From positions 1 through 44,168 of the forward strand of contig JACPAM010000027.1 of assembly GCA_016180805.1 (NCBI GenBank): DNA of 44,168 bases, read 5' to 3'. Origin of the DNA: Deltaproteobacteria bacterium. Lineage in GTDB: Bacteria > Desulfobacterota > Binatia > UBA9968. Made by a program: the position numbers and the translations under genes. This document shows, piece by piece, positions 2,527 to 43,427 of this stretch. Every line of letters starts with the position of its first letter. The stretch's first letter is position 1. The notes beneath the pieces are model-generated. The model did not search any database, was not told the origin of the DNA, and saw only the letters and a list, made by a program, of their open reading frames with translations.

Positions 2527-3480
2527 GTGGCGAAACGAAACGGCGCTCGCTCCATCCTGAACCTGATCGGTTCCACTCCTGTCGTCAAAATACGAAATTT
2601 GGCCGGTCCCCATGATGCCGAAGTATGGGCGAAACTGGAGTCGTTCAATCCCGGGGGCTCCGTCAAGGATCGAATTTGTCTGAGCATGATCGAGGCCGCG
2701 GAGCGCGACGGGAAGTTGAAGCCCGGCGCGACCATCGTGGAGCCGACCAGCGGGAACACAGGGATTGGCCTGGCGCTCGTCGCCGCGGTAAAGGGGTACC
2801 GCTTGATTCTGACGATGCCGGACACCATGAGCGAGGAGCGGCGAAGCCTACTCGCCGCCTACGGCGCCAGTCTGATCCTCACGCCGGACACGAAAGGCAT
2901 GGGCGGGGCTATCCGCAAAGCCGAAGAGCTCGTGCTCGAGCATCCGGAGTATTTCATGCCGCAGCAGTTCAACAACCCCGCAAACCCCGAAATCCATCGG
3001 CGCACCACGGCCGTGGAGCTGCTCCAACAGTTTCCGAGAGTCGACGCGTTCGTGGCGGGGGTCGGAACGGGAGGGACCATCACGGGCGTCGGCGAGGTGC
3101 TGAAGGACAAGATGAAAGGGGCCCGGGTCTACGCGGTGGAACCGGCGGCGTCGCCCGTCATATCCGGAGGAGAGCCGGGATACCACAAGATTCAAGGGAT
3201 CGGCGCAGGCTTCATCCCCGCAGTGCTGAACACCCAGATTTACGACGAGGTCATCACCGTCAGCGATGAGGACGCCGCCCTCTGGACAAGGCGATTGGCG
3301 TTGGAAGAAGGCATCCTGGTAGGGATCTCCTCGGGTGCCGCGTGTTACGCTGCCCTGAAGGTCGCCAAGGAAATGGGCCGGGGCCATGTTGTCGTGGCGG
3401 TCTTCCCCGACAAAGGGGAGCACTATCTCAGCACGGAGATTTTCAGCGATCGCCGATGGACACCAAGCTCGAAGGATTGA
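2527..3480 (+). CDS. cysK: Cysteine synthase (O-acetylserine sulfhydrylase)
   Basis: PLP enzyme that makes L-cysteine from O-acetylserine and sulfide in the cytoplasm. The 317-residue protein shows the PLP-lysine motif PGGSVKDR (Lys47), the substrate loop PTSGNTG (about residues 73-79), the phosphate-binding [10 protein letters not shown] and the C-terminal GISSGAA. I chose the GTG at 2527 because AAGGAA precedes it and conserved sequence begins just after it; the open frame runs further upstream but overlaps the promoter. It overlaps larE by 25 bp, so the two are co-translated. The pairing makes sense because LarE takes sulfur from its own cysteine or a bound cluster, so a cysteine supply is linked to a sulfur-transfer enzyme. 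CysK and CysM are hard to separate by eye; CysK fits better. Confidence 0.92.
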
Positions 3481-4268
3481 AAGAAACCCTGCGGGAAACC
3501 GACGGGGTCGTGGTAGCGTTCTCGGGTGGCGTGGATTCTACCTTCCTCCTTAAAGTCACCCATTCGGTGCTCGGCGATCGTGCGGTTGCGCTCACCGCCT
3601 CGTCGCCCACGGCGCCACCGGGAGAGCTCGAGGCGGCTCAGGAACTGGCTCGCCAGATTGGGTGCCGCCACATCATCCTGGACTCGCACGAATTGGAAAA
3701 CCCGGCGTTCGCCCGCAATCCGGTCAATCGCTGCTACTTTTGCAAGGATGAACTCTACCGGATCTGCCGCAGCGAGGCCGAACGCCTGGGATTCTCCACG
3801 GTCGTCGATGGCACGAACTTGGACGACCTTAAGGATCACCGTCCCGGCCTCAAAGCGGCCAAGGAATGGCGGGTCCGTCATCCGTTGGTCGAAGCGCGAC
3901 TAACCAAAGCGGACATCCGGCAATTCAGCCGGGAGCTGAATCTGCCGACCTGGGACAAGCCGGCCATTGCCTGCCTCTCTTCCCGTTTTCCCTATGGGGT
4001 TGCCATCAACATGGACAGACTGGAAAAGATCGCGGCGTGTGAGCGCTTTCTGAGGGAGCTCAACTTCCGGCAGTTTCGCGTCCGGTATCACGGCGAACTG
4101 GTGCGGATCGAGGTCGCCCCGTCGGAAATAGAGCGGCTCTTCGACGCGGCCACTAGAGCGGCGATCGTCGAGCGATGCCAGCAGGCGGGTTTCAGCTTCG
4201 TTACCCTCGACCTTCAAGGGTATCGGACCGGCAGCATGAACGAGCCCTTGCGCCACAAACCCTCCTGA
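3456..4268 (+). CDS. larE: ATP-dependent sulfur transferase LarE, three-cysteine type
   Basis: PP-loop ATPase that inserts sulfur into pyridinium-3,5-biscarboxylic acid mononucleotide during synthesis of the nickel-pincer nucleotide cofactor of lactate racemase-type enzymes. The 270-residue protein has the PP-loop SGGVDS (residues 23-28) and the LarE core. Three cysteines are placed as in cluster-containing homologues: Cys93 and Cys96 in NRCYFCK and Cys173 in [10 protein letters not shown]. Cys173 corresponds to the sacrificial cysteine of single-cysteine LarE. The ATG at 3456 lies inside the end of cysK. No larA, larB or larC is present in the window, so the client enzyme is unknown. Confidence 0.9.
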
Positions 4269-4292
4269 GCACCCAATCCCTAGCCTGGATTC

Positions 4293-4435
4293 CTTCGAAA
4301 GCCTGCCGGGGCCCGAGTCTTCGGGCCGCGGCCGATAGACTAAGCTCCCTCGGGAAGCGCGCTCTCGGCTGCGGCCGATGGGTTCGTGCCATGAGTCGTG
4401 CCGTTTGTAATCGGACGTCCGCAGCCTCGCTCGCG
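4293..4435 (+). repeat. Modular palindromic repeat, copy 1
   Basis: First of three dispersed copies. A left module (about 4293-4335) contains a perfect 7-bp hairpin, GGCCCGA-GTCT-TCGGGCC. A core (4342-4435) contains two GC-rich arms that pair imperfectly and the perfect decamer palindrome CGGACGTCCG. Copy 1 fills the gap between the convergent genes larE and ispD, so it may act as a bidirectional terminator. The core is nearly identical to the copies at 22256-22374 and 23103-23270. Confidence 0.85.
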
Positions 4436-4489
4436 CAGGCTCGGTCTACGGTACGTTGTGACTTTTCCTGCCTTCATGAATAATAGGCC

Positions 4490-5185
4490 CTAGGCATGCT
4501 TTTGGCTTAGCAGCGCTTCGGCAAATAAGAGATCCTCTGGAAACGTGATCTTAATGTTAGTCCGTTCCCCTTCAAGAACCACGACCGGCTTTCCCAGCCG
4601 CTCTACCAACGCGGCGTCGTCGGTGGCCTCAGCATCTTCGTCGACCGTGCTTCGGTGAGCTTCGAGGGCGACCTCGACGCGAAAAGCTTGCGGGGTTTGA
4701 ATCTCCCAGAGGGTTTCTCGATCCAGGGTCTCGCGAACGCGCCGATCCGCGGGCACGATCTTGATCGTATTCCGCGCCGGGACGCCGACCACGGCGGCTC
4801 CTTCCGCCAGCGCCGCCGCCACACAGCGATCGATTAGCCCGGAGGACACCAGCGGGCGGGCCCCATCATGGATGACCACAACCTGGCAATCCGCATCGAG
4901 GCGCGCCAACCCCTGCCGCACGGAATCCTGCCTCCTCGGCCCGCCCGATTGAAATACGCATTCCAGACCGTGAAGTTGGGGAGCGTTGCGGACAATCTCC
5001 TGACACTTCGAGAGATCCTCCTCGGCCGCAACCACGATCACCCGCCGCACGGTTCGGGACTGGGCGAAACGGCCGAGAGTGTGAAGAATAAGGGGAGAGC
5101 CTGCGAGAATCACAAAGGGCTTACGAACCTCCCCGCCCATCCTTCTCCCCTCGCCGGCCGCAACCACCACGGCGTTCACTTGCAT
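4490..5185 (-). CDS. ispD: 2-C-methyl-D-erythritol 4-phosphate cytidylyltransferase
   Basis: Third step of the MEP isoprenoid pathway: CTP plus MEP gives CDP-ME. The 231 residues carry the nucleotidyltransferase loop AAGEGRRMG near the N-terminus, a conserved HDGARP motif in the middle, TPQAF, and EATDDAALVE towards the C-terminus, all typical of IspD. The length matches the family. It lies 84 bp downstream of carD on the same strand, across a terminator. carD followed by ispD is a recurring gene order in deltaproteobacteria and actinobacteria. No ispF follows; the gene is convergent with larE. Confidence 0.94.
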   Translation of the reverse strand: MQVNAVVVAAGEGRRMGGEVRKPFVILAGSPLILHTLGRFAQSRTVRRVIVVAAEEDLSKCQEIVRNAPQLHGLECVFQSGGPRRQDSVRQGLARLDADCQVVVIHDGARPLVSSGLIDRCVAAALAEGAAVVGVPARNTIKIVPADRRVRETLDRETLWEIQTPQAFRVEVALEAHRSTVDEDAEATDDAALVERLGKPVVVLEGERTNIKITFPEDLLFAEALLSQKHA

Positions 5186-8143: not shown

Positions 8144-8219
8144 GGCGGCGTACCCAAGTGGTTAAGGGAGAGGTCTGCAAAACCTCGATGCGGCGGTTCG
8201 AATCCGCCCGCCGCCTCCA
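8144..8219 (+). tRNA. tRNA-Cys (GCA)
   Basis: Complete cloverleaf: acceptor stem GGCGGCG/CGCCGCC, a D arm with CCC/GGG, anticodon stem GAGGT/ACCTC around loop CTGCAAA (anticodon GCA), and T stem GGCGG/CCGCC with TTCGAAT. The discriminator is U, the identity base of tRNA-Cys, and CCA is encoded at 8217-8219. It borders the decayed accessory region that follows. Confidence 0.97.
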
Positions 8220-8597: not shown

Positions 8598-8825
8598 CCC
8601 TGATCCGACATTTTTACGGCATGAAATTGCGCTCAGAGCGGCTTGCCGCGCAAACCACGAGCCTATGTTGCTGTGATCGTTAAGTTCACCAATTGTGAGA
8701 AATCTCCGTGCTTGTCAAAACTGCACTCTGCCTTTGAGAAATCTCCGTGCTTGTCAAAACTGCACTCTGCCTTGCGGGACCGGTGTGATCACGATTTCAA
8801 GCCAGTATTTTTTGTCGGATCAGGG
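8598..8825. mobile_element. Small inverted-repeat-bounded element (MITE-like or IS remnant)
   Basis: A perfect 13-bp inverted repeat, CCCTGATCCGACA at 8598-8610 and its complement at 8813-8825, bounds 228 bp. Reading inward from each end, both termini continue with five A/T bases and then TAC. A 4-bp CAAA lies directly outside each end (8594-8597 and 8826-8829) and could be a target duplication. No transposase is inside. Ends starting with CC and a 4-bp duplication resemble the IS1380 family, but this is only a suggestion. Confidence 0.5.
8696..8773. repeat. Perfect 39-bp tandem duplication
   Basis: The unit at 8696-8734 is repeated exactly at 8735-8773. It lies inside the 228-bp inverted-repeat element. 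The unit length is a multiple of three, so a chance open frame (8643-8849) runs through it with a 13-residue repeat, but I see no support for coding. Confidence 0.9.
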
Positions 8826-20482: not shown

Positions 20483-22234
20483 GTGGACCAAAAAGAGCAA
20501 ACGTTCCTGCGCGGCTCTTCGGAAGAGCATCTCCATCTTCGCCTCATCATCATTATTCCCGTCATCTTCATTCTCGTCTCCCTCAGCGTGGGTCTCATCG
20601 CCATGACCTTGACCCAGTGGGTTTTCCGCCCGCCGGAGCCAACCTCCAAGGATCTCCTGCTACTGCGGCTCGGCATTGTCGGATCGTCGCTTTTCGCCGG
20701 CCTGCTCGGCGCGCTGCTCGCCTACAGCATCACCAAGCCGGTAAGAAGGGCGATCGTCGAAGCGGAAAAAATGATCCGCTACGCCAAGGCAGACCCGGTC
20801 CCGATCAACGCGGCAAACGAGGTCGGCGCGTTGTCTGCGCTGTTCGACCAGGCCTTCGTTTCTTTTATCGAGGTGGTGCAGGCGCGAGAAATGCTCGACG
20901 GGATCAACGAGGGGATCATCGCTCTCGACAAGGACGGCAGAGTCGCCGGGATGAATTTACGGGCCCAGGAGACACTCGAGGTCTCGCTGGCCGACGCGCG
21001 CCAGCAAAGCCTGCAACAACTATTGGGCCCCTCGCCGGCCAACGGCCTCCTGCTCGGCATCGCCCAAGGCGTGCTGCGCGAGGAGCAAGAGCGCGGACAC
21101 AACCGCGTTCCCTTTCGCTCCCCTTCAGGTAGGGAACGGCTACTTTCGGTCAAAGCGTCGCCGCTCAGGCTCGGCAACGAGCCCCGGGAATTCATCGGCG
21201 CGATCATGACCTTGAGCGAATATCCCGGTAGTCCACCCCAGTTTCCCGAGATTATCGGACAGAGCGAGCCTTTCACGGAAGTGCTGGACCTCATCGCGAA
21301 AGTCGCCCCGACCGACTCGACGGTGCTCCTCATGGGAGAGAGCGGGACCGGGAAAGAGATCATTGCCGATGCCATCCATCGGTTGAGCCGGCGTAAGGAA
21401 AAGCCTTTCATCAAGCTCAACTGCGCGGCGATCCCGGAAGGGCTCTTAGAGAGCGAGCTGTTCGGCCACGAGAAAGGAGCGTTCACCGGAGCCACGGGCA
21501 AGAAGCCGGGAAAGTTCGAACTGGCCGATGCCGGGACCATGTTTCTCGATGAGATCGGCGACATGAGCCCGTCCACGCAGGCGAAGCTCCTGCGCGTCCT
21601 CCAGGAAAGAGAGGTAACCCCGCTCGGGGGGGCCCAGGTTAAACAGGTAGATGTGAGGATCATCGCCGCTACCAATAAGGAGCTGCTCCAGGAGGTCCGG
21701 GCGGGAAAATTCCGCGAGGACCTCTTTCACCGTCTGAACGTCATGACGATCAGCATCCCTCCGTTGCGGGAAAGAAAATCCGACATCCCTTTCCTGGCGG
21801 ACCACTTTCTCGGCGTGGTCGCCAAAAAAAGCCAGACCGAGAAGAAATCGCTCTCGCGCAGCGCCATGGATTGCCTGTTGGGCTATTCGTGGCCCGGCAA
21901 CGTCCGCGAACTGGAGAACGCCATCGAGCGGGCCTGTCTTCTTTCCAACGGGTCGGTGATCCAGCCCGAGGATTTGCCCCTCGCTTTCACCCCCCCAAAG
22001 CTGGTGGCCCTCGCGGACGCCAACGGTCTCGAAGCGAAGACCGACCGATTGGAGACCAAAGCATCGCTGAACGAGACGCTCGAGGCCATCGAAAAGGAGC
22101 TCATCGTTCAAGCTTTGAAAAAGTGCAAAGGGGTTCAGGTCGAAGCGGCGAAGCTCTTGGGATTGAATCACAAGAACCTGTGGGCCAAGATCAGAAAGCA
22201 CAAGATCGAACCCGGCTACCTCAAGGAAGGATAG
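20483..22234 (+). CDS. Membrane-anchored sigma-54-dependent activator with PAS-like domain
   Basis: 583 residues. Two transmembrane helices (about 19-43 and 58-83), a HAMP-like region, a PAS-like domain (about 140-250: [18 protein letters not shown]), a sigma-54 AAA+ domain with Walker A GESGTGKE (285-292) and GAFTGA (332-337), and a C-terminal Fis-type helix-turn-helix (about 545-578). There is no receiver domain, so the signal is sensed directly, probably at the membrane. The start is a GTG at 20483 and the gene has its own sigma-70 promoter. It lies divergent to the pilus operon, whose visible promoter is sigma-70 type; a sigma-54 promoter is seen at 36774. It may regulate either, or targets elsewhere. 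Confidence 0.9.
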
Positions 22235-22255
22235 AAGAAATTCCGTCGATAACCT

Positions 22256-22374
22256 GTCTTCGGGCCGCGGCCCACGGATTCAGATCCCTCGGGAAGCGCG
22301 TTCTCGGCTGCGGCCGATGGGCCTCTGCCATGGGTCGTACCGTCTGTAATCGGACGTCCGCAGCCTCGCTCACG
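22256..22374 (+). repeat. Modular palindromic repeat, copy 2
   Basis: Second copy. The left module is shorter (GTCTTCGGGCCGCGGCC at its start, without the full hairpin) and the core (22282-22374) keeps the CGGACGTCCG palindrome and both arms, with about ten substitutions against copy 1. It again lies between convergent genes, the activator and merR. Confidence 0.85.
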
Positions 22375-22388
22375 CTCCCCTCGGTCAC

Positions 22389-22742
22389 CTAGGACAGCAT
22401 TTTGCGCAGGGACTGGAGATCCTTTTTGATTTTCATCAGGGCGTGTCGATAGGCCGATTCCGAGAGCGGAAGCTTCAACTGCCGCCGCTCTTCTTTTTTC
22501 GCTTCCTTGAGTTTTTTCCTCGCCCCCTCGATCGTATAACCTTCAGCGTAAAGAAGCCGCTTGATTTCGAGGAGCAACTCGACATCTTTCTTGCGGTACA
22601 GGCGGTGGCGCGACGGCGCCTTGCCCGGCTTTAAGAGATCGAACTCCGTCTCCCAGTACCGGAGAACGTACGGCTTGACACCCACGATGCGGCTGGCCTC
22701 GCCAATCTTGAAATAGAGTTTCTCGGGCAGCCGGACCACCAT
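22389..22742 (-). CDS. MerR-family transcriptional regulator
   Basis: 117 residues. Winged-helix MerR DNA-binding domain: [25 protein letters not shown] (about 10-34), then [33 protein letters not shown]. The C-terminal part is basic and coiled-coil-like, with no effector domain. It is the last gene of the phenylalanyl-tRNA synthetase/IHF operon, 13 bp after ihfA; this pairing is usual in deltaproteobacteria. Targets are unknown. The stop is separated from the convergent activator gene by repeat copy 2. Confidence 0.92.
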
Positions 22743-22755
22743 AAATTTGCGCGGG

Positions 22756-23046
22756 CTAGGTTGACGGAGAAACGCTGTTCAGGTTCTTCTTTAAAATATG
22801 GCTCGGCTTGAACGTCAAGACCTTCCGCCCCACGATGATGATCTCGTCGCCGGTTTGGGGATTCCGACCTCGCCGCGGCCGTTTGCTGTTGACGACAAAG
22901 TTGCCGAACCCCGATATTTTGACTTTCTCCCCGTGCTCCAGGCAATTCTTGATGATTTCAAATGTTGCCTCGACCACATCCGTCGCTTCTTTCTTGGAGA
23001 AACCCACCTTCTCGTAAATTCGCACAATGATATCCGCTTTCGTCAT
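22756..23046 (-). CDS. ihfA: Integration host factor subunit alpha
   Basis: Nucleoid protein that bends DNA, for example between an activator site and a sigma-54 promoter. The 96-residue protein follows the HU/IHF pattern: [23 protein letters not shown], then [11 protein letters not shown], the DNA-binding arm around [12 protein letters not shown] and a Lys-rich end. I chose the ATG at 23046, with AGAGG upstream; a TTG two codons earlier is possible. The position after pheT is typical for IHF alpha rather than HU. Confidence 0.93.
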
Positions 23047-23102
23047 CTCCAACCTCTCTCTTTTTTATTTCTTTCTCGGTACGACCTCGAACGCAAATTC
23101 CC

Positions 23103-23270
23103 TCGAAAGCCTATCGGGGGCCGAGTCTTCGGGCCGCGGCCGTCCCCCCCCACCGACGGGAGCGACCGACGGGGAGCGCGAGCGAGGCTGCGGACGTCCG
23201 ATTACAGACGCTACGACTTATGGCACGAACCCATCGGCCGCAGCCGAGAGCGCGCTTCCCGAGGGAGCTT
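23103..23270. repeat. Modular palindromic repeat, copy 3, core inverted relative to its left module
   Basis: The left module (23103-23141) is in the plus orientation and begins TCGAAAGCCTATCGGGGGCC, as in copy 1. The core (23178-23270) is present as the reverse complement of copies 1 and 2. It fills most of the 323-bp gap between pheT and ihfA, inside an operon rather than at a convergent end. The rest of the gap holds a C-run and no open frame I support. Confidence 0.85.
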
Positions 23271-23375
23271 AATCCAGACATTGGGCTGAGCTCAGTCGAA
23301 GCCTCGTCCGCGGCCCTCTTCCTCCTCCTCTGGCTTTCATCGGCAAGAGCGAAGTTAAACTTCATGAACCGCTTC

Positions 23376-25460
23376 CTACATCCTCAACTGCGCGCCGAAA
23401 AGCCCTCCGATCCGCGCCGCCAACTGTTGGTGAAGCTGGTTCACCTCAGAATCGGTCAACGTCCGGTCATCTGCCCGATAGGAGATCGTGTAGGCCAGGC
23501 TCTTCTTCCCTTCTGGAATCGGCGATCCCCGGTACTGGTCGAACACCTCCACATCCTCGATCAGAGCATGGTTGAGACCTTTGATCCAACGGACAATCCG
23601 CTCAGCGGGGAAGGCATCATCAACCACGACAGCCAGGTCCCTCTCTACACAGGGGAATCGCGGCAGCGGCCGGGCCGTCAATTGACGCGGAGCGTACTCG
23701 GCCAACCCCTCGAAGTCAAGCTCAAATACCACAAACGGCTCAAGCCCGCTCGCCTCACAAAAATCCGGGTGGATCTCGCCGAGATATCCCACATCGCGGT
23801 CCCCGAGCCGGACGACCGCAGCGTTCGCCGGGTGTAAAAACGCGCCGATGTCGGACTTCGAGCAGGCGGGTTCGGGCCCGATTCCCAGCACCTCGAAAAT
23901 CCCTTCGATGATTCCCTTCACTTCGAGAAAGGTCGGCGGGGTTCCATCCTTCGACCTCAATCCTGTGCGCTCCCTTGGACCGTAGAAGAGGCCGGCCAAC
24001 TGTTGCTTTTCTGCGGCCGCGCCCCGTGCGTCCAGAGCAAAGACCTTGGCAAAATCAAAGCCGTGAAAACTCCTGGCTTTGTGCGCCAAATTGGTCCTGA
24101 GGTTTTCGAGCAGGCCGGGAATCAAGCTGAGTCTAAGCTCGGCCTTGTCCTGCGCCAGAGGATTGAGAATGGCCACCGGGCGTCGCTCGCCGCCCCACAA
24201 CCCGCGGAAGCGCTGGTTCATTTCCGCGGAGGTAAAGGGGAGGTTGATCATTTCCGTCAGTCCCTCGCCGAGCAAAAATGCGCGCAACTTCCGTTCCCTG
24301 GGAAGCCGGCGGTCTAAGCCCCCGCCCGCGGGCCGCACCAGCGGGAGCGTCGACGGGATCTTCTCATACCCGTAGAGCCGCGCAACTTCCTCGATGAGAT
24401 CCGCCTCGCGCGCCAGGTCGCGGCGGTAGGAAGGCGGGACCACCCGCACGGCGGCCTTTGAGCGCCCCCGAACCTTCATCCCGAGAGCTTTAAGGATGCG
24501 CTCGGTTTCCCGGCGCGGCAGATCCACCCCCAGGAGCGCGCTCACTTTTTTCTCCCGCAACACAATCGACGCCGGCTTGGCCCGGCGGGGATAGCGGTCC
24601 ACCACCCCCTCGACCGGCGCGGCGCCCGCCACTTCAACCAAGAGAAAAGCCGCCCGGTCGAGCGCGTAGAGCGTCCCTTCCGGATCGACGCCGCGCTCGA
24701 ACCGGTGGGAAGCCTCGCTGTGAATGGCGAGGCGTTTAGCGGCGCGGCGAACGCAGGCCGGGTGGAAGTGAGCGCTCTCTAAAAGCACCCCATGGGTATC
24801 CCACTGAACTTCCGACTCACTGCCCCCCATCACGCCGGCCAGGGCGATCGGAGTGGCCCCATCGCAGATCAGCAGATCTCCCGGGGCCAATTCCCGCTCG
24901 ACGCCGTCCAAAGTGGTGAGCTTCTCAATCGCGCCGGCCTCGCGGACCACGATCCGCTTCGTTGCCAGCCGGTCCGCATCGAAGGCGTGGAGCGGCTGTC
25001 CGGTCTCCAGCATGACGTAATTGGTTACATCCACGACGTTGTTAATCGACCGGATCCCGCAGGCCTCGAGCCTCGTCTTCATCCAATCGGGAGCGGCGGC
25101 CACGTGTACGCCCAAGACCATGCGCGCCGAATAACGCGGGCAGAGATCCGGGCTCAGGATCTCGACATCAACCAGCCGATCGATACCCGAACCCTTAGCA
25201 TGGGGAAGCACAGGAGGGAGGCGCACATGGCCGCCCGTTAAGGCTGCGACTTCGCGAGCGAGACCGAGGATGCCCAAGCAGTCACCCCGATTCGGTGTGA
25301 CCGCAACCGCCATCACCCAGTCTTCGTGCTTTTCCTGCCGGCTCGGCAGCGCCAGTAACGACTCGACCTCAAGGCCCGCCATCGTGAGCGTCTGAGCGAG
25401 CTCCTGAGCCGATCTCTTGAAGTCGACAAATTCCCTGAGCCAACTCAAGGTGAAATTCAT
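23376..25460 (-). CDS. pheT: Phenylalanyl-tRNA synthetase beta subunit, lacking the N-terminal tRNA-binding domain
   Basis: Beta subunit of the (alpha-beta)2 synthetase that charges tRNA-Phe and edits Tyr-tRNA. The 694 residues are about 100 shorter than the usual length. After MNFTLSWLREFVDF...TMAGLEVESL the chain passes within some 15 residues to VAVTPNRGDCLGILGLAREV; the EMAP-like OB fold normally between these points is absent. The B3/B4 editing domain, B5 domain and C-terminal ferredoxin-fold anticodon-binding domain (from about 600, PLPRFPCVERDLAVVVDD) are present. GAGG lies just before the ATG at 25460. It follows pheS by 16 bp. Confidence 0.93.
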   Translation of the reverse strand: MNFTLSWLREFVDFKRSAQELAQTLTMAGLEVESLLALPSRQEKHEDWVMAVAVTPNRGDCLGILGLAREVAALTGGHVRLPPVLPHAKGSGIDRLVDVEILSPDLCPRYSARMVLGVHVAAAPDWMKTRLEACGIRSINNVVDVTNYVMLETGQPLHAFDADRLATKRIVVREAGAIEKLTTLDGVERELAPGDLLICDGATPIALAGVMGGSESEVQWDTHGVLLESAHFHPACVRRAAKRLAIHSEASHRFERGVDPEGTLYALDRAAFLLVEVAGAAPVEGVVDRYPRRAKPASIVLREKKVSALLGVDLPRRETERILKALGMKVRGRSKAAVRVVPPSYRRDLAREADLIEEVARLYGYEKIPSTLPLVRPAGGGLDRRLPRERKLRAFLLGEGLTEMINLPFTSAEMNQRFRGLWGGERRPVAILNPLAQDKAELRLSLIPGLLENLRTNLAHKARSFHGFDFAKVFALDARGAAAEKQQLAGLFYGPRERTGLRSKDGTPPTFLEVKGIIEGIFEVLGIGPEPACSKSDIGAFLHPANAAVVRLGDRDVGYLGEIHPDFCEASGLEPFVVFELDFEGLAEYAPRQLTARPLPRFPCVERDLAVVVDDAFPAERIVRWIKGLNHALIEDVEVFDQYRGSPIPEGKKSLAYTISYRADDRTLTDSEVNQLHQQLAARIGGLFGAQLRM

Positions 25461-27196: not shown

Positions 27197-27284
27197 TTTC
27201 AAACAGGCAAAAGTCGATAGGCAATAGGCATCAGTTTCTCTCTTCTATTTCCTATTGCCTGTTGCCTTGTGCCTGTTGCCTATT
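27197..27284. repeat. Heptamer-iterated imperfect palindrome between infC and rpmI
   Basis: Left units ACAGGCA, AAAGTCG, ATAGGCA, ATAGGCA are followed after a pyrimidine-rich loop by right units CCTATTG, CCTGTTG, CCTTGTG, CCTGTTG, CCTATTT. The two sides are complementary apart from scattered mismatches. Confidence 0.75.
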
Positions 27285-29810: not shown

Positions 29811-29920
29811 CAGGCATCAGGGATAGTTTCCAGTTTCCAGTTATTCGGGAAAACTTAAAACTCAAAATTCAACACTAAAAACTCTCTCCTGTTGCCTATT
29901 GCCTATTGCCTCCTGCCTTC
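29811..29920. repeat. Heptamer-iterated imperfect palindrome upstream of thrS
   Basis: Left units GGGCAAC, AGGCATC, AGGGATA and right units CTGTTGC, CTATTGC, CTATTGC, CTCCTGC flank a middle with TTTCCAG twice and an A-rich stretch. It lies between tRNA-Val and thrS and shares the period, but not the exact sequence, of the two palindromes downstream in the operon. Confidence 0.7.
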
Positions 29921-38298: not shown

Positions 38299-41205
38299 AT
38301 GTTAGCTGATCGTTTCAAACTGACGGGAACGATTCGGGCGCGTTTTTTGCTTGCGCTCGGCCTCATCGGCATTGTGCCGCTTGGGGTGGTAGGACTAGGC
38401 ATCGCCCTCTTGGACAGTCGCGCGATCACGGAACAATCGGCGCGGGAGCTCACAGGGCTCGCGCGCGGTTTGGCTGGCCAGCTTGATGTCTATATGTCGG
38501 AGGTCTTTAGCGATACTCGGGCTATGGCCGCTCTGCCGGAAATCGTGAGCATGGATCGCGCTCGGCAAGGCGCCCTTCTCAGGGAACTCTTCCACCATTA
38601 TTCAAAGTACTGGCGCCTTTCGACGTTTGACCGGAGCGGCAGGCTCCTTGCTTCATCGCACCCCGGCGCCCTTCCGTCGATGACGATCCGAGAATCGTTT
38701 CGAACTGCCGCCGAAAGAGGCTATCAGGACTGGATGGTGGCGCCTGCGCTTAGTACCGGACGCTCAGCGTTGTTTGTCCATACGCCGATCCGTAACGCGG
38801 AGCGACGGGTCGTAGGGGTACTTGGTGCAGTCATAGACCTTGAGAATCTCTCCGCAGTGGTCGGGAGGGTTCCGGTCGGTGGAAAGGGCTTCGCGTTTGT
38901 CTTGGACACTAATGGGCGCGTCCTGCTCCATCCCGATCAGGTAGCGGTGCAGGAGCGCCGAGACTACTCCTGGATCGGTGTGCCGTCGGGAGGTCAGGTG
39001 CCGGGACCGGGCACGGTCCGATATGAGTTAGTGAATGAGGCACGCATTGCGGGCTACGCTCCGTTGCGGAAAGTAGGCTGGAGCGTAGTTGTTGAGCGAC
39101 CCGAGGATGAGCTACTGGTCGCCGCGAATCGGTCCTGGCGCCTCGCTCTCGCCGGCTTGATCATGAGCGCGTGTCTTGCTCTTCTGACGGCCGTTTTACT
39201 TGCTCGCAAGCTCACACGACCGCTGGTAGCGCTGGCCGAGGCTGCGCAGGCACTAGGCTCTGGCAGCCCATCCACACCGCTCCCCCCCATGGCGCCAAAC
39301 AGTGGCGAGCTTGGAACGCTTGTCGCGGCTTTCGAAGCAATGCGTAGAGCCGTGGAGGTGCGTGAGGGGGCGTTGGAAAGACAGGCAGAGATCCAAAAGC
39401 TCCTCTTCGATGAGACCAAGGAGAAAGCCAAGGAGTTGGCCGTCGCCTATAAAGCCGCCTTTACTTTCAATCAATCTTTAAACCTTGAGACGACTCTCAG
39501 TGTAGTCCTAGATGAAGTGCTCAGAGTCATCAGCGCGGACAGCGCGTCGCTCCGCGTTCTCACTGAGCGGGAAGGCCTTATGGATTTCGCCGTTAACAAA
39601 GGCTTTCCAGAAGAGTACCTTGCTGCGCGGGCCAGAGCGCAGGATATCGGCAAAGCTGCCCGACATGTGCTCGCCACCGGAGAGGTAGTTATTTCAGATG
39701 ATCTTACAGAACATCCCTTTTTTAAGGGAGGAATACTGGAGAGTTTAGGGTATAGATCGGCAATTTACCTCCCCATTAATGTGCGGGGGACAACCCTTGG
39801 AATCCTTAACCTGGCCAGCCGAGAAAAAGGTCGATTCAGTGAGAGGGAAAAGGTCATACTTTCATCCGTTAGCCATCAGCTTGGTTTGGCGCTGGATAAT
39901 GCTCGTCTCTTTAAAGAGACCCAGCGCAATCTGGAGCGCATACAGGCGCTGCAGGAGATTGATAGGGCCGTAACCTCGACCTTGGATCTCCGTACCGTCT
40001 TGGATCTGCTGTTGGAAAAAATTGATCTTTTCTTTCCCTACCCGTCTGCAACGACTGTCAGATTACTAAATCGAGAAACGGGAGTCTTAGAGGCTCTGGC
40101 CTGTAGGGGCCTGAACGAAAAAGAATGGAGGACACAGGACAGCAGAACCGTCGGCGGGCGTGCCAAAAAGATATTCGAAACCAAGGCACCATTGACGGTA
40201 CGCAACATCCAAACGGACCCGCAAACCTCGAAGCCGGCGATATTTCGCAAGTATGGGCTGGTCTCTCACTTAGGCGTCCCTTTGATTGCCAAGAACGAAA
40301 CCATAGGGGTCCTCGCCCTCTATACAAAAGAAGAGCACGATTTTACCAGCGAAGAGATCGAGTCTCTCTCTAACCTGGCAAGTCAAGCGGCCATCGCAAT
40401 CCACAATTCCGAGCTCTATCAAGAGATGGCAAAGTTAGCGGGCGATCTGGCGAGATCGAATAGGGTCAAAGATGAATTTCTGAGTGTCATGTCCCATGAG
40501 CTTAGAACGCCGCTGAATGTGATCATGGGTTATACCGCGATGCTCAAAGACAGTATGCTAGGGGAGATTAACCAGGAGCAAGAAAAGGCCTTAGAGAAGA
40601 TTTTAGCGCGATCCCAAGAGCAACTGGGAATGATCGGCGGCATACTCGACGCGACCCAGTTGGAGGCTAACAGAGTAAAGGTCGAGCATGAGGAGTTTGG
40701 CCTAAAAGAATTTCTTGAGGAGCTAAGGTCGGACTACCGTTTTCGTCCCCCGCAAGAACTTACGATTGAGTGGGAATATCCCCCGCATCTGCCCGTTGTG
40801 AAAACCGATCGGGAAAAGCTCAAGCAGATCCTGCGGAATCTCATCAACAATGCTATTAAATTCACCCCGAAAGGATCGATAACCATATCAGCGAGGATAA
40901 CCGAGCCTCATGCCCTTATCGAGTTCAAGGTGGCTGATACAGGGATAGGGGTTGCGGAGGAAGACCTTCCCGTTATCTTTGAGAAGTTCCGTCAGCTCGA
41001 CAGCTCAGAGACGAGACTCTATGGGGGTGTGGGAATAGGATTGCATCTTGTGAAGAAATTTACCGAACTCTTGGGCGGAAAGGTTGAGGTTGAGAGCATG
41101 CCTGGCAAAGGCTCAATCTTTACGGTTACGATACCCTGTGAAGTTTATCCGCCAGCAGTGCGCCTACAAGAGCTTGGCATGGAAAGCAAAGACCTGAATG
41201 TTTAG
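38299..41205 (+). CDS. Cache/HAMP/GAF-GAF sensor histidine kinase
   Basis: 968 residues. Transmembrane helix about 11-35, periplasmic double-Cache domain about 36-275, second helix 282-305, HAMP about 306-360, two GAF domains (about 390-545 and 551-710), HisKA with the phosphorylated His733 in VMSHELRTPLN, and an HATPase domain about 835-945 with NAIKFTPKG, DTGIGV and GVGIGLHLVKK. No receiver domain is attached. The gene starts 5 bp after the binding-protein gene, in the same operon. The Cache domain could bind ligand directly or contact the binding protein; the partner response regulator is not in the window. Confidence 0.92.
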   Translation: MLADRFKLTGTIRARFLLALGLIGIVPLGVVGLGIALLDSRAITEQSARELTGLARGLAGQLDVYMSEVFSDTRAMAALPEIVSMDRARQGALLRELFHHYSKYWRLSTFDRSGRLLASSHPGALPSMTIRESFRTAAERGYQDWMVAPALSTGRSALFVHTPIRNAERRVVGVLGAVIDLENLSAVVGRVPVGGKGFAFVLDTNGRVLLHPDQVAVQERRDYSWIGVPSGGQVPGPGTVRYELVNEARIAGYAPLRKVGWSVVVERPEDELLVAANRSWRLALAGLIMSACLALLTAVLLARKLTRPLVALAEAAQALGSGSPSTPLPPMAPNSGELGTLVAAFEAMRRAVEVREGALERQAEIQKLLFDETKEKAKELAVAYKAAFTFNQSLNLETTLSVVLDEVLRVISADSASLRVLTEREGLMDFAVNKGFPEEYLAARARAQDIGKAARHVLATGEVVISDDLTEHPFFKGGILESLGYRSAIYLPINVRGTTLGILNLASREKGRFSEREKVILSSVSHQLGLALDNARLFKETQRNLERIQALQEIDRAVTSTLDLRTVLDLLLEKIDLFFPYPSATTVRLLNRETGVLEALACRGLNEKEWRTQDSRTVGGRAKKIFETKAPLTVRNIQTDPQTSKPAIFRKYGLVSHLGVPLIAKNETIGVLALYTKEEHDFTSEEIESLSNLASQAAIAIHNSELYQEMAKLAGDLARSNRVKDEFLSVMSHELRTPLNVIMGYTAMLKDSMLGEINQEQEKALEKILARSQEQLGMIGGILDATQLEANRVKVEHEEFGLKEFLEELRSDYRFRPPQELTIEWEYPPHLPVVKTDREKLKQILRNLINNAIKFTPKGSITISARITEPHALIEFKVADTGIGVAEEDLPVIFEKFRQLDSSETRLYGGVGIGLHLVKKFTELLGGKVEVESMPGKGSIFTVTIPCEVYPPAVRLQELGMESKDLNV

Positions 41206-41232: not shown

Positions 41233-43427
41233 GTGAGACAATTTTCTTTTTCAAGTCTGCGCGCCCGGTTAATGCTTCTCGTTCTCCTTGCCGTCATCCC
41301 CTCTTTCGGCTTAATCCTTTACGCGGCTTGGGAGCAGCGGCGATTAGCCGCTGTGGAAGTGCAGGAAAACGCGCTGAGGTTGGTGCGGCTTACGTCCAGC
41401 GATCAGGAACAACAAAGGGAGATCCATTCTGCAGCGCTATCCCGATCAAGAAACCGTTCAGCGTGGCCGACCGTGCCTGGTTTCAGCGTGCCGTTCAAAC
41501 CCGTCGCTTTGCCATCGGGGATTACCAGATAGGGCGCGCTAGCGGTAAGGCCTCGCTTAATTTTGGCTATCCTGTCATTAACGAGCGGGGCGATGTCGAG
41601 GCCGTGGTCCTTGCCGGGCTGGATCTTGCGTGGCTCAACCGTCTTGCCGCCAAGGCGCAGTTGCCCGAGGGTTCCGCGCTCACTATGACCGACCAAAACG
41701 GTACCATCCTAGCCCGCCACCCAAACCCAGGGCAGTGGATCGGGAAGTCCGTGCCGGAGGCCTCCATCGTTAAAGCCATTCTGAATCGGGGAGGCGAGGG
41801 AACCGCAAGGGCTTCAGGCATGGACGGCGTCCGGCGGCTATATGCCTTTACCCCGCTGGATAGCACCGCGGAGGCCGGGAAAGTATACCTGAGTGTCGGT
41901 GTTCCCGAGCAAGTTGCCTTTGCGGATGCGGACCGGACTTTCAAACGCAACCTGTTAGGACTCGGGATGGTCGCCGCGCTGGCGCTCACCGCGGCTTGGA
42001 TAGGCGGTGATGTGTTCATCTTACGCCGGGTGAAGGCTTTGATGAAAATAACGAAACGGCTGAGCGAGGGCGACCTGAGCGCGCGGACGGGGTCGTCCGA
42101 TGGACAAGGGGAGCTGGAGCAACTGGCACGAGCTTTTGACCGGATGGCTGATGCTCTTCAAATACGGGAGACTGAATCCCGACGGGCGGAAGAGGCTCTG
42201 CGAAGCCGCTATCAAGAACTGCAAGCTCTCCATGAGATCAGTCATGCAGTCAGCTCGACTTTGGATGTCCATGCGGTACTGGACATCCTCACAAAAAAAA
42301 TCGACATCCTTCTGCCCTACACTGCTGTCCTGGTATGGTTACGGAACGAAGAGAGTGGACAGTTAGAACGTGCGGTCTGCAGGAACCTCGATGAAGAGCT
42401 TTGGAAGGGACGAAAGTCAGCAGGTATCCCCGCTCTCGTGAAAGAAGCAGTTAACGGTAGGGTCCCTGTTGTCGCTAGCGACGTTCAGACAGACTCCCGG
42501 ACACTGGACCCGGAATTTTACCGCAGACATGGGCTGCTTTCCCACCTCTCAGTCCCGTTGCTTGCTAAAGGAGAAGCTCTCGGAGTGGTGGTTTTTCTCA
42601 CCAGAGAGAGACATGACTTCACCAATGAAGAGATCCAGTTTCTCGCTACGCTGACGGGGCAGGCAGCTATTGCAATCCACAATTCTCGACTTTACGAGCA
42701 AACCAGGAAGCAGGCAGTTCAGTTGGAGCAGGCGAACAGAGCCCTGGCGGACTTCACGGCTATGATCGCCCATGATCTACGGTCTCCCCTTACGGCCGTG
42801 GTGTCGGAAGCGGCAATGCTAGAGGACGGTCTATACGGACCGGTCAGCGAGGAGCAGAAGAGGCGGCTGGCCAAGATACAGGCTCACAGCCGGAACCTGG
42901 TGGATTTAGTCAACGATTTTCTCGATCTCTCTAAGCTGGAAGCGGGACGCGTTGACTTAGTTAAACAGGAAGTGAATCTGGGAGATCTGATCCAAGACAG
43001 CTTGGACAATCATCTGCTCCTTGCCCAAAGTAAGAAAATCGCGCTGCGGACCTGCGTTGATCCCGGGCTACCTCGGGTAATAGCCGATCCACGCCGGCTC
43101 GGTCAGGTCCTTAGCAACCTTCTGAGCAACGCTATCAAGTTCACCCCCGAAGGCGGACAGATCGACGTGAGCGCCGGTAAAAACGACGCTACAGGGGTCG
43201 AAGTCTGGGTCAAGGACACGGGATTAGGGATCTCGCCGGAGGAGATCCGCAGTCTGTTCGAAAAGTACGCTCAGACCCGAAGTGGCCAGACTACGAAATC
43301 TAAGGGAACGGGACTGGGACTTGCGATTTGTAAGATGATCGTCGATGCCCACGGCGGCAGGATCTGGGCCGAAAGCGAGGAGGGCAAGGGGACGACCGTT
43401 CGGTTCACGATCCCCTACGCAACCTAA
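41233..43427 (+). pseudogene. Second Cache/HAMP/GAF histidine kinase, disrupted in its Cache domain
   Basis: The first frame gives the N-terminus from a GTG at 41233: FSSLRARLMLLVLLAVIPSF, then QRRLAAVEVQENALRLVRLTSSDQE, up to about 41411. The match then continues in the next frame, from GDPFCSAIPIKKP through the rest of the Cache domain, a transmembrane helix, HAMP, one GAF domain, HisKA (MIAHDLRSPLT, His at 42771-42773) and HATPase to 43427. Compared with similar kinases about 40-60 residues of the Cache domain are missing at the frame change. The downstream frame alone could start at 41328 but would lack the first membrane helix. Either a recent mutation or a sequence error. Confidence 0.8.

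Follow-up and report, generated by a model that had tools for sequence, protein, structure and literature searches.

Three copies of a palindromic repeat in the window

The window, by which we mean the whole stretch of 44,168 nucleotides analysed here (contig JACPAM010000027.1, from a deltaproteobacterium of the Binatia), contains a core of ∼100 bp that recurs at positions 4338-4436, 22276-22380 and, inverted, 23176-23274. In the repeat search of the window, 4317-4436 is 88% identical to 22256-22375, and the third copy aligns in inverted orientation with the first (4338-4436 and 23176-23274, 95% identity) and with the second (22276-22380 and 23171-23275, 90% identity). The BLAST E-values between the copies, 2e-40 and 3e-38, show that the repeat is not a product of chance. 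The near-identical core in three copies, one of them inverted, which had been noted in a preliminary description, is thus upheld by both searches.

Copy 1 (4283-4454, + strand) consists of an outer palindrome arm, A, a complete core and a truncated or diverged right arm, and matches positions 3-175 of the 240-position family profile with 189 bits. Its arm A (4289-4341, + strand), delimited by the repeat search and the boundary profile, runs ATTCCTTCGAAAGCC...TCTTCGGGCCGCGGCCGATAGAC, and its core (4342-4450, + strand) is made up of a left stem arm, LH (AAGCTCCCTCGGGAAGCGCGCTCTCGGCTGCGGCCGATGGG), a loop of ∼30 nt and a right stem arm, RH (CGGACGTCCGCAGCCTCGCTCGCGC...). Copy 2 (22239-22400, + strand) has a degenerate arm A and a core, with a profile match of 156 bits over positions 19-225 and a nominal end at 22444. 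Both lie between convergent genes, as had been described: 3456-4268 (+) and 4490-5185 (-) for copy 1, 20483-22234 (+) and 22389-22742 (-) for copy 2. Copy 3 (23096-23300, - strand) lies between two genes of the same strand (22756-23046 and 23376-25460, both -) and carries a diverged B-type arm at the end opposite to arm A. It is adjoined at 23301-23390 by a B2-type outer segment, which on the - strand reads GGTTCATGAAGTTTAACTTCGCTCTTGCCGATGAAAGCC; the family has several alternative outer ends, of which this is one.

The module TCTTCGGGCCGCGGCC is present in all three copies, at 4318-4333, 22257-22272 and 23126-23141, and had been taken for a left module. In copy 3, with the core on the - strand, the module lies on the + strand as TCTTCGGG; seen from the core it is reverse-complemented and lies on the right instead of the left, together with the rest of arm A (23097-23142 in + strand text). 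It follows that the arms are swappable and that there is no fixed left module. Likewise, the palindrome CGGACGTCCG does occur in each of the three window cores, as stated earlier, but it is a variable feature, and copies from the sister genus often read CTCTACGTCCG instead. The copies are unaccompanied by a transposase, in agreement with the first account, and the family has no gene of its own. A known structured RNA was rejected as the source: the repeat has no Rfam match, the sole Rfam matches in the window being two tRNAs, and the rRNA- or tRNA-like origin that had been raised as a possible objection was not found by this search.

The window holds other repeats as well. A 39-nt unit is perfectly duplicated in tandem at 8696-8773, downstream of the tRNA gene at 8144-8216, and a separate family is represented by an inverted pair of short AGGCAATAGGCA-type repeats (27205-27234 and 29889-29918, 83% complementary). 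The stretches 40336-40409 and 42612-42685, which are 76% identical and lie within the neighbouring large genes 38299-41205 and 41463-43427, are probably paralogous domains.

Copy number and distribution of the family

The genome searched is a draft of 4.46 Mb in 339 contigs, 91% complete. The core 21-mer CGGACGTCCGCAGCCTCGCTC has 258 matches in it (≤3 mismatches), split 133 to 125 between the strands, against none for the reversed control, which corresponds to about one copy per 17 kb. A full query of 211 nt gave at least 40 long matches with 87-97% identity, mostly on separate contigs. The genome count proposed with the preliminary description therefore reveals a dispersed, high-copy palindromic family, and the possibilities considered there, that only three copies exist genome-wide and that they arose by local duplication, are both rejected.

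The same 21-mer has 116 matches in a genome of the same genus and 3-25 in each of four genomes from another genus of the family. When the exact two-half pattern was searched for, the carrier genomes were found to hold 178, 66, 29, 20, 15 and 4 copies, and all fall within 2 of the 13 genera of the family; there were none in the remaining 11 genera, and none in a sample of ∼390 further genomes of the phylum. Such a lineage-restricted and uneven copy number is typical of mobile DNA. Viral contigs gave 0 matches, and a virus origin was rejected on this basis. We found no papers naming the two NCBI genomes.

A core within exchangeable arms

Every copy is an imperfect palindrome of mosaic structure, in which the core hairpin (LH-loop-RH) sits within optional, swappable outer arms. 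In the aligned copies the core is ∼103 nt, with LH reading AGCTCCCTCGGGGAGCGCGCTCTCGGCTGCGGCCGATGG, a loop of ∼30 nt and RH reading CGGACGTCCGCAGCCTCGCTCGCGCTCCCCTCGGTCGC; within it GGCTGCGG pairs with CCGCAGCC, and GGGGAGCGCG with CGCGCTCCCC. LH and RH are almost identical across the two genera, and the loop is diverged or replaced. The optional outer arms, left-hand A (ATTCCCTCGAAAGCTCCTCGGGGGCCGAGCCATCAGGCCGCGGCC) and right-hand B (CCGCGGCCTTCCTCCTCGTCCCCCTCGGGCTTCGAAG), pair with each other, and in the aligned copies the arm pairs change together. In the boundary profile of the family, arm A has a sharp outer boundary at ATTCC/ATTCCC.

Over ∼0.97 Mb the architectures A-LH-RH-B, A-LH-RH and LH-RH alone were found 24, 18 and 15 times, respectively, and the reversed-arm forms LH-RH-A', B'-LH-RH and B'-LH-RH-A' are also present. 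There are, in addition, A-loop-B elements from which the LH and RH stems are missing (for example L091:19464-19616). The elements thus read as nested palindromes with interchangeable arms.

In several elements (L097:3739-4001, L127:6554-6581 and others) another palindromic repeat, GGGGACTGGCTCGCTTGCGTGCCTGTCCCC, has been inserted so as to separate arm A from the core. This repeat is also found standing alone, and it resembles the GGGGWSAS motif that has been reported for repeats next to some tyrosine transposases (PMC3733652). At L168:1555-1715 (G002 C12, a third same-genus genome) the core loop has been swapped for the palindrome ATCTCAGATTTGAGATTTGAAATTTGCCATTTGAAAT, with both stem halves kept. 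The B2-type right ends at L149, L140, L145 and L254 finish in ATTCC, and arm A starts with ATTCC in the same orientation, so that the match between the two ends is direct, not inverted.

A complete form with terminal inverted repeats and empty sites

Eight elements, which we call the T form, have the ends TAATAC...GTATTA, and five of the eight are exactly 272 bp long (L124:5907-6178, L137:10581-10852, L157:13923-14194, L075:5393-5664 and L234:2445-2716). They carry 12-bp terminal inverted repeats (TIRs), TAATACAAACGA, with TA at both ends, and their edges are mostly C-TA and TA-G. Two of the 272-bp copies are 94% identical over their full length, the others about 83%. Genome-wide, TAATACAAACGA occurs at 29 sites (≤1 mismatch), against 3 in the control. 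The T ends are borne by only about a dozen copies, most copies, the three in the window included, being of the A/B type. The window copies share 84-95% identity with the T-form interior over 113-135 nt; the outer ends differ.

For three T-form copies, one of 272 bp and two shortened, orthologous empty sites were found in the other of two sister species. The first, L075:5393-5664, reads AATGAC-TA..TA-GGAAGGGAG where the empty site at L110:16516 reads AATGGCCAGTAAAGGAG; the other two, L159:11107-11250 (144 bp) and L159:14385-14600 (216 bp), are both empty in L239. At all three, a single TA-like dinucleotide is present where the occupied site has two. TIRs together with a TA that collapses at the empty site are the hallmark of a miniature inverted-repeat transposable element (MITE). 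An A-loop-B element also has a clean empty site, of 110 bp (L063:7494-7605 versus L155:4415). For any single empty site, precise deletion of the palindrome is an alternative, and the flanks of the empty sites are only about 80-95% identical between the two sister species. Direct repeats of at least 8 nt around the copies show no excess over permuted flanks, and long target duplications for all copies were rejected accordingly.

Some orthologous sites are shared by the sister species and several are occupied in one of them only; at one site, compared between L088 and L092, the flanks match and the core has the opposite orientation. This combination fits mobile DNA whose palindromes also recombine. 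One could go further and suppose that an old, non-mobile palindrome was dispersed passively, by gene conversion, palindrome-driven template switching and segmental duplication. The nested palindromes, the swapped arms and the in-place inversion fit recombination between palindrome arms, and the coordinated change of arm pairs also favours such an origin. It is nevertheless highly improbable, given the clean single-copy empty sites with intact flanks and TA at the ends, and the ∼260 unlinked positions with unrelated flanks.

Search for a mobilising enzyme

The preliminary description proposed a REP-like family and suggested looking for a linked RAYT. A true REP/BIME (REPIN) family would consist of short hairpins spread by a RAYT, a Y1 HUH transposase, via single-stranded DNA, and RAYTs are described as lying, without exception, between two inverted REPs that have a GT(A/G)G head (PMC2817692). 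The present repeats resemble REP, BIME and REPIN elements (PMC2817692, PMC3116915) in being high-copy, intergenic, mosaic palindromes with two inverted hairpin-forming halves and a variable loop, and candidate enzymes are at hand: 10 Y1_Tnp genes in the source genome, of which six encode 221-336 aa, and another 31 in six relatives. Across the seven genomes 40 Y1 loci were checked, however, and no LH, RH, A or B module lies near any of them, the sole module matches in the scan being at L190, which is not a Y1 locus; no matching pair of T ends surrounds any of the 40 either. Nor does Y1 gene number track repeat number, with 18 Y1 genes and 15 copies in G007 but 1 and 29 in G022. Linkage to a RAYT was therefore rejected.

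The structure of the elements differs too. On reading the consensus, we saw no GTAG or GTGG head at the ends of LH, RH or arm A, and the unit is 103-272 bp, versus 20-40 bp for REPs, with a TA-flanked TIR form. CGTC-tagged repeats, whose short stem (8-9 bp, with a 4-5-nt loop) has CGTC at one of its ends, are similar in having no dedicated transposase (PMC3733652), but their layout is not seen here: the core has an ACGTC next to its RH stem, internal to the element, and by reading no short hairpin follows it. What remains of the REP-like proposal is a dispersed, high-copy, intergenic, palindromic and gene-less family. The unflanked Y1 loci, a GTAG head that was not seen on reading, and the 272-bp form with TIRs and a TA target duplication, which enzymes of the IS200/IS605 type do not make, leave REP/RAYT membership unsupported. 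We consider a true REP/BIME family improbable.

Other transposases fared no better as partners. The seven carrier genomes contain no match to the IS630-type DDE_3 domain (PF13358), none of the 29 TAATACAAACGA sites forms a TIR pair around a gene, and the T-form TIR is absent from the DDE_Tnp_1 loci of two same-genus genomes (two loci in G000, one in G001); IS630-type and DDE_Tnp_1 transposases were rejected, none being found with matching ends. A source transposon with LH and RH split around a gene was not seen in ∼0.97 Mb. The mobilising enzyme may have been lost, may belong to another family, or may lie in the missing part of the assembly.

Gene context and the terminator question

According to a home-made gene caller, applied to stretches chosen for carrying copies, 116 of 119 sampled copies (∼97%) are intergenic and three overlap a called gene. 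For the 102 copies with both neighbours, 62 lie in co-directional, 23 in convergent and 17 in divergent gaps, the baseline for all gaps being 591, 109 and 108, respectively. The excess in convergent gaps is ∼2-fold (odds ratio 2.1), with p=0.008 when gaps are counted and p=0.02 when gap length is used instead; these p-values are uncorrected for multiple tests, and the baseline includes the elements' own length. By length, copies are depleted in divergent gaps, and they are often near stop codons.

These tendencies, together with stem halves that are nearly identical between genera, are what one would expect if the repeat were primarily a two-way terminator, the role suggested earlier, or an element of transcript 3' ends, and if selection maintained it between convergent genes. 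The terminator scan, however, found no intrinsic terminator (a GC-rich hairpin followed by a T-tract) at the window copies, and the terminator-like sites near copies are all unrelated to the core. The core shows no orientation bias relative to transcription (31:31), most copies are in co-directional gaps, 17 of 102 are in divergent ones, and orthologous sites differ in presence between sister species. Folding gives little support either. The consensus DNA strand forms a nested hairpin of -50 kcal/mol with a z-score of -1.8, but two individual window copies fold no better than their shuffles (z of -1.2 and -0.1), and an automatic alignment fold of the core retained two pairs only. The stem is nearly invariant and shows no covariation, its one variable pair being mismatched in 53 of 92 copies. 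A terminator role as the reason for the existence of the family is thus very unlikely, and insertion where it does least harm fits the intergenic placement at least as well.

Discussion

We conclude that the repeats in the window are most probably copies of a non-autonomous, MITE-like miniature mobile element present at ∼260 places in the genome. The family has the size (103-272 bp), the lack of coding capacity and the multiple copies (258 core matches) of a MITE, and the T form adds TIRs and a target-site duplication, seen at three empty sites. The window copies would belong to it by virtue of the sequence they have in common with the T form. Neither a parental insertion sequence (IS) with the same TIRs nor an IS630 transposase, as would mark a MITE derived from IS630/Tc1-mariner, was found, and it is the TA duplication only that would suggest an IS630/mariner assignment. 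In the mechanism we propose, a transposase supplied in trans would recognise the inverted ends and, in the manner of IS630/Tc1-mariner enzymes, insert the element at TA. The window copies would be relatives with the same interior and different or lost outer ends, and such ends may arise by arm exchange, by truncation, or where one palindrome has inserted into another's loop. The intergenic location would then reflect tolerance, with any effect on transcript 3' ends being secondary.

It is also possible, although rather unlikely, that the core (LH-loop-RH) is itself the mobile unit and recruits different outer ends, which would make it a modular element that changes its TIRs and perhaps its transposase. 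The arms would then be exchanged or nested, whilst the centre stays fixed across two genera.

Returning to the MITE-like element, its closest parallels can be sought among other small palindromic repeats. We know of no sequence relation of the family to ERIC/IRU or to Correia elements, the latter having TA as their target. ERIC/IRU and Correia (NEMIS) elements are likewise intergenic, gene-less palindromes of ∼100-160 bp whose copy number differs widely between relatives (PMC10969869); compared by description, the present family differs in having several alternative outer ends around one core. The BOX, RUP and SPRITE elements of Streptococcus pneumoniae are also small modular elements that insert into one another (PMC10969869), but their modules and host are different, and in the present family arms and core alike are palindromic partners.

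Prokaryotic MITEs are 50-500 bp long, with TIRs and direct repeats (PMC10969869). In QMITE2 of Coxiella burnetii full-length copies are few, and truncated ones, which 'more closely resembled' REPs, are many (PMC5896051, described in PMC10969869). The likeness of QMITE2 and QMITE1 to the present family lies in this mixture, in which a few copies are full-length and bear TIRs and direct repeats and many are truncated and look like REPs; the differences are that the organism is unrelated, that the present family also exchanges and nests palindrome arms, and that no parental IS was found for it. The Chunjie MITE of Geobacter uraniireducens, at 178-235 bp with 38 copies plus 57 partial ones (PMC10969869), is of similar size, is intergenic and has many partial copies from which TIRs or direct repeats are missing; by description, the only basis of this comparison, its copy number is lower. 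The family works like QMITE2 and Chunjie, and its T form is a MITE by definition.

This is, then, a real, abundant, lineage-restricted and previously undescribed family of miniature mobile elements, of a well-known kind but with unusually modular ends. What appeared to be a local three-copy repeat ranks among the main dispersed repeats of an uncultivated deltaproteobacterial lineage, and such repeats are likely to break assemblies and to mislead promoter or terminator annotation in the genomes that carry them. A MITE with defined ends and a TA duplication is found here beside many REP-looking relatives with other ends, and their coexistence bears on the origin of REP-like repeats from MITEs.
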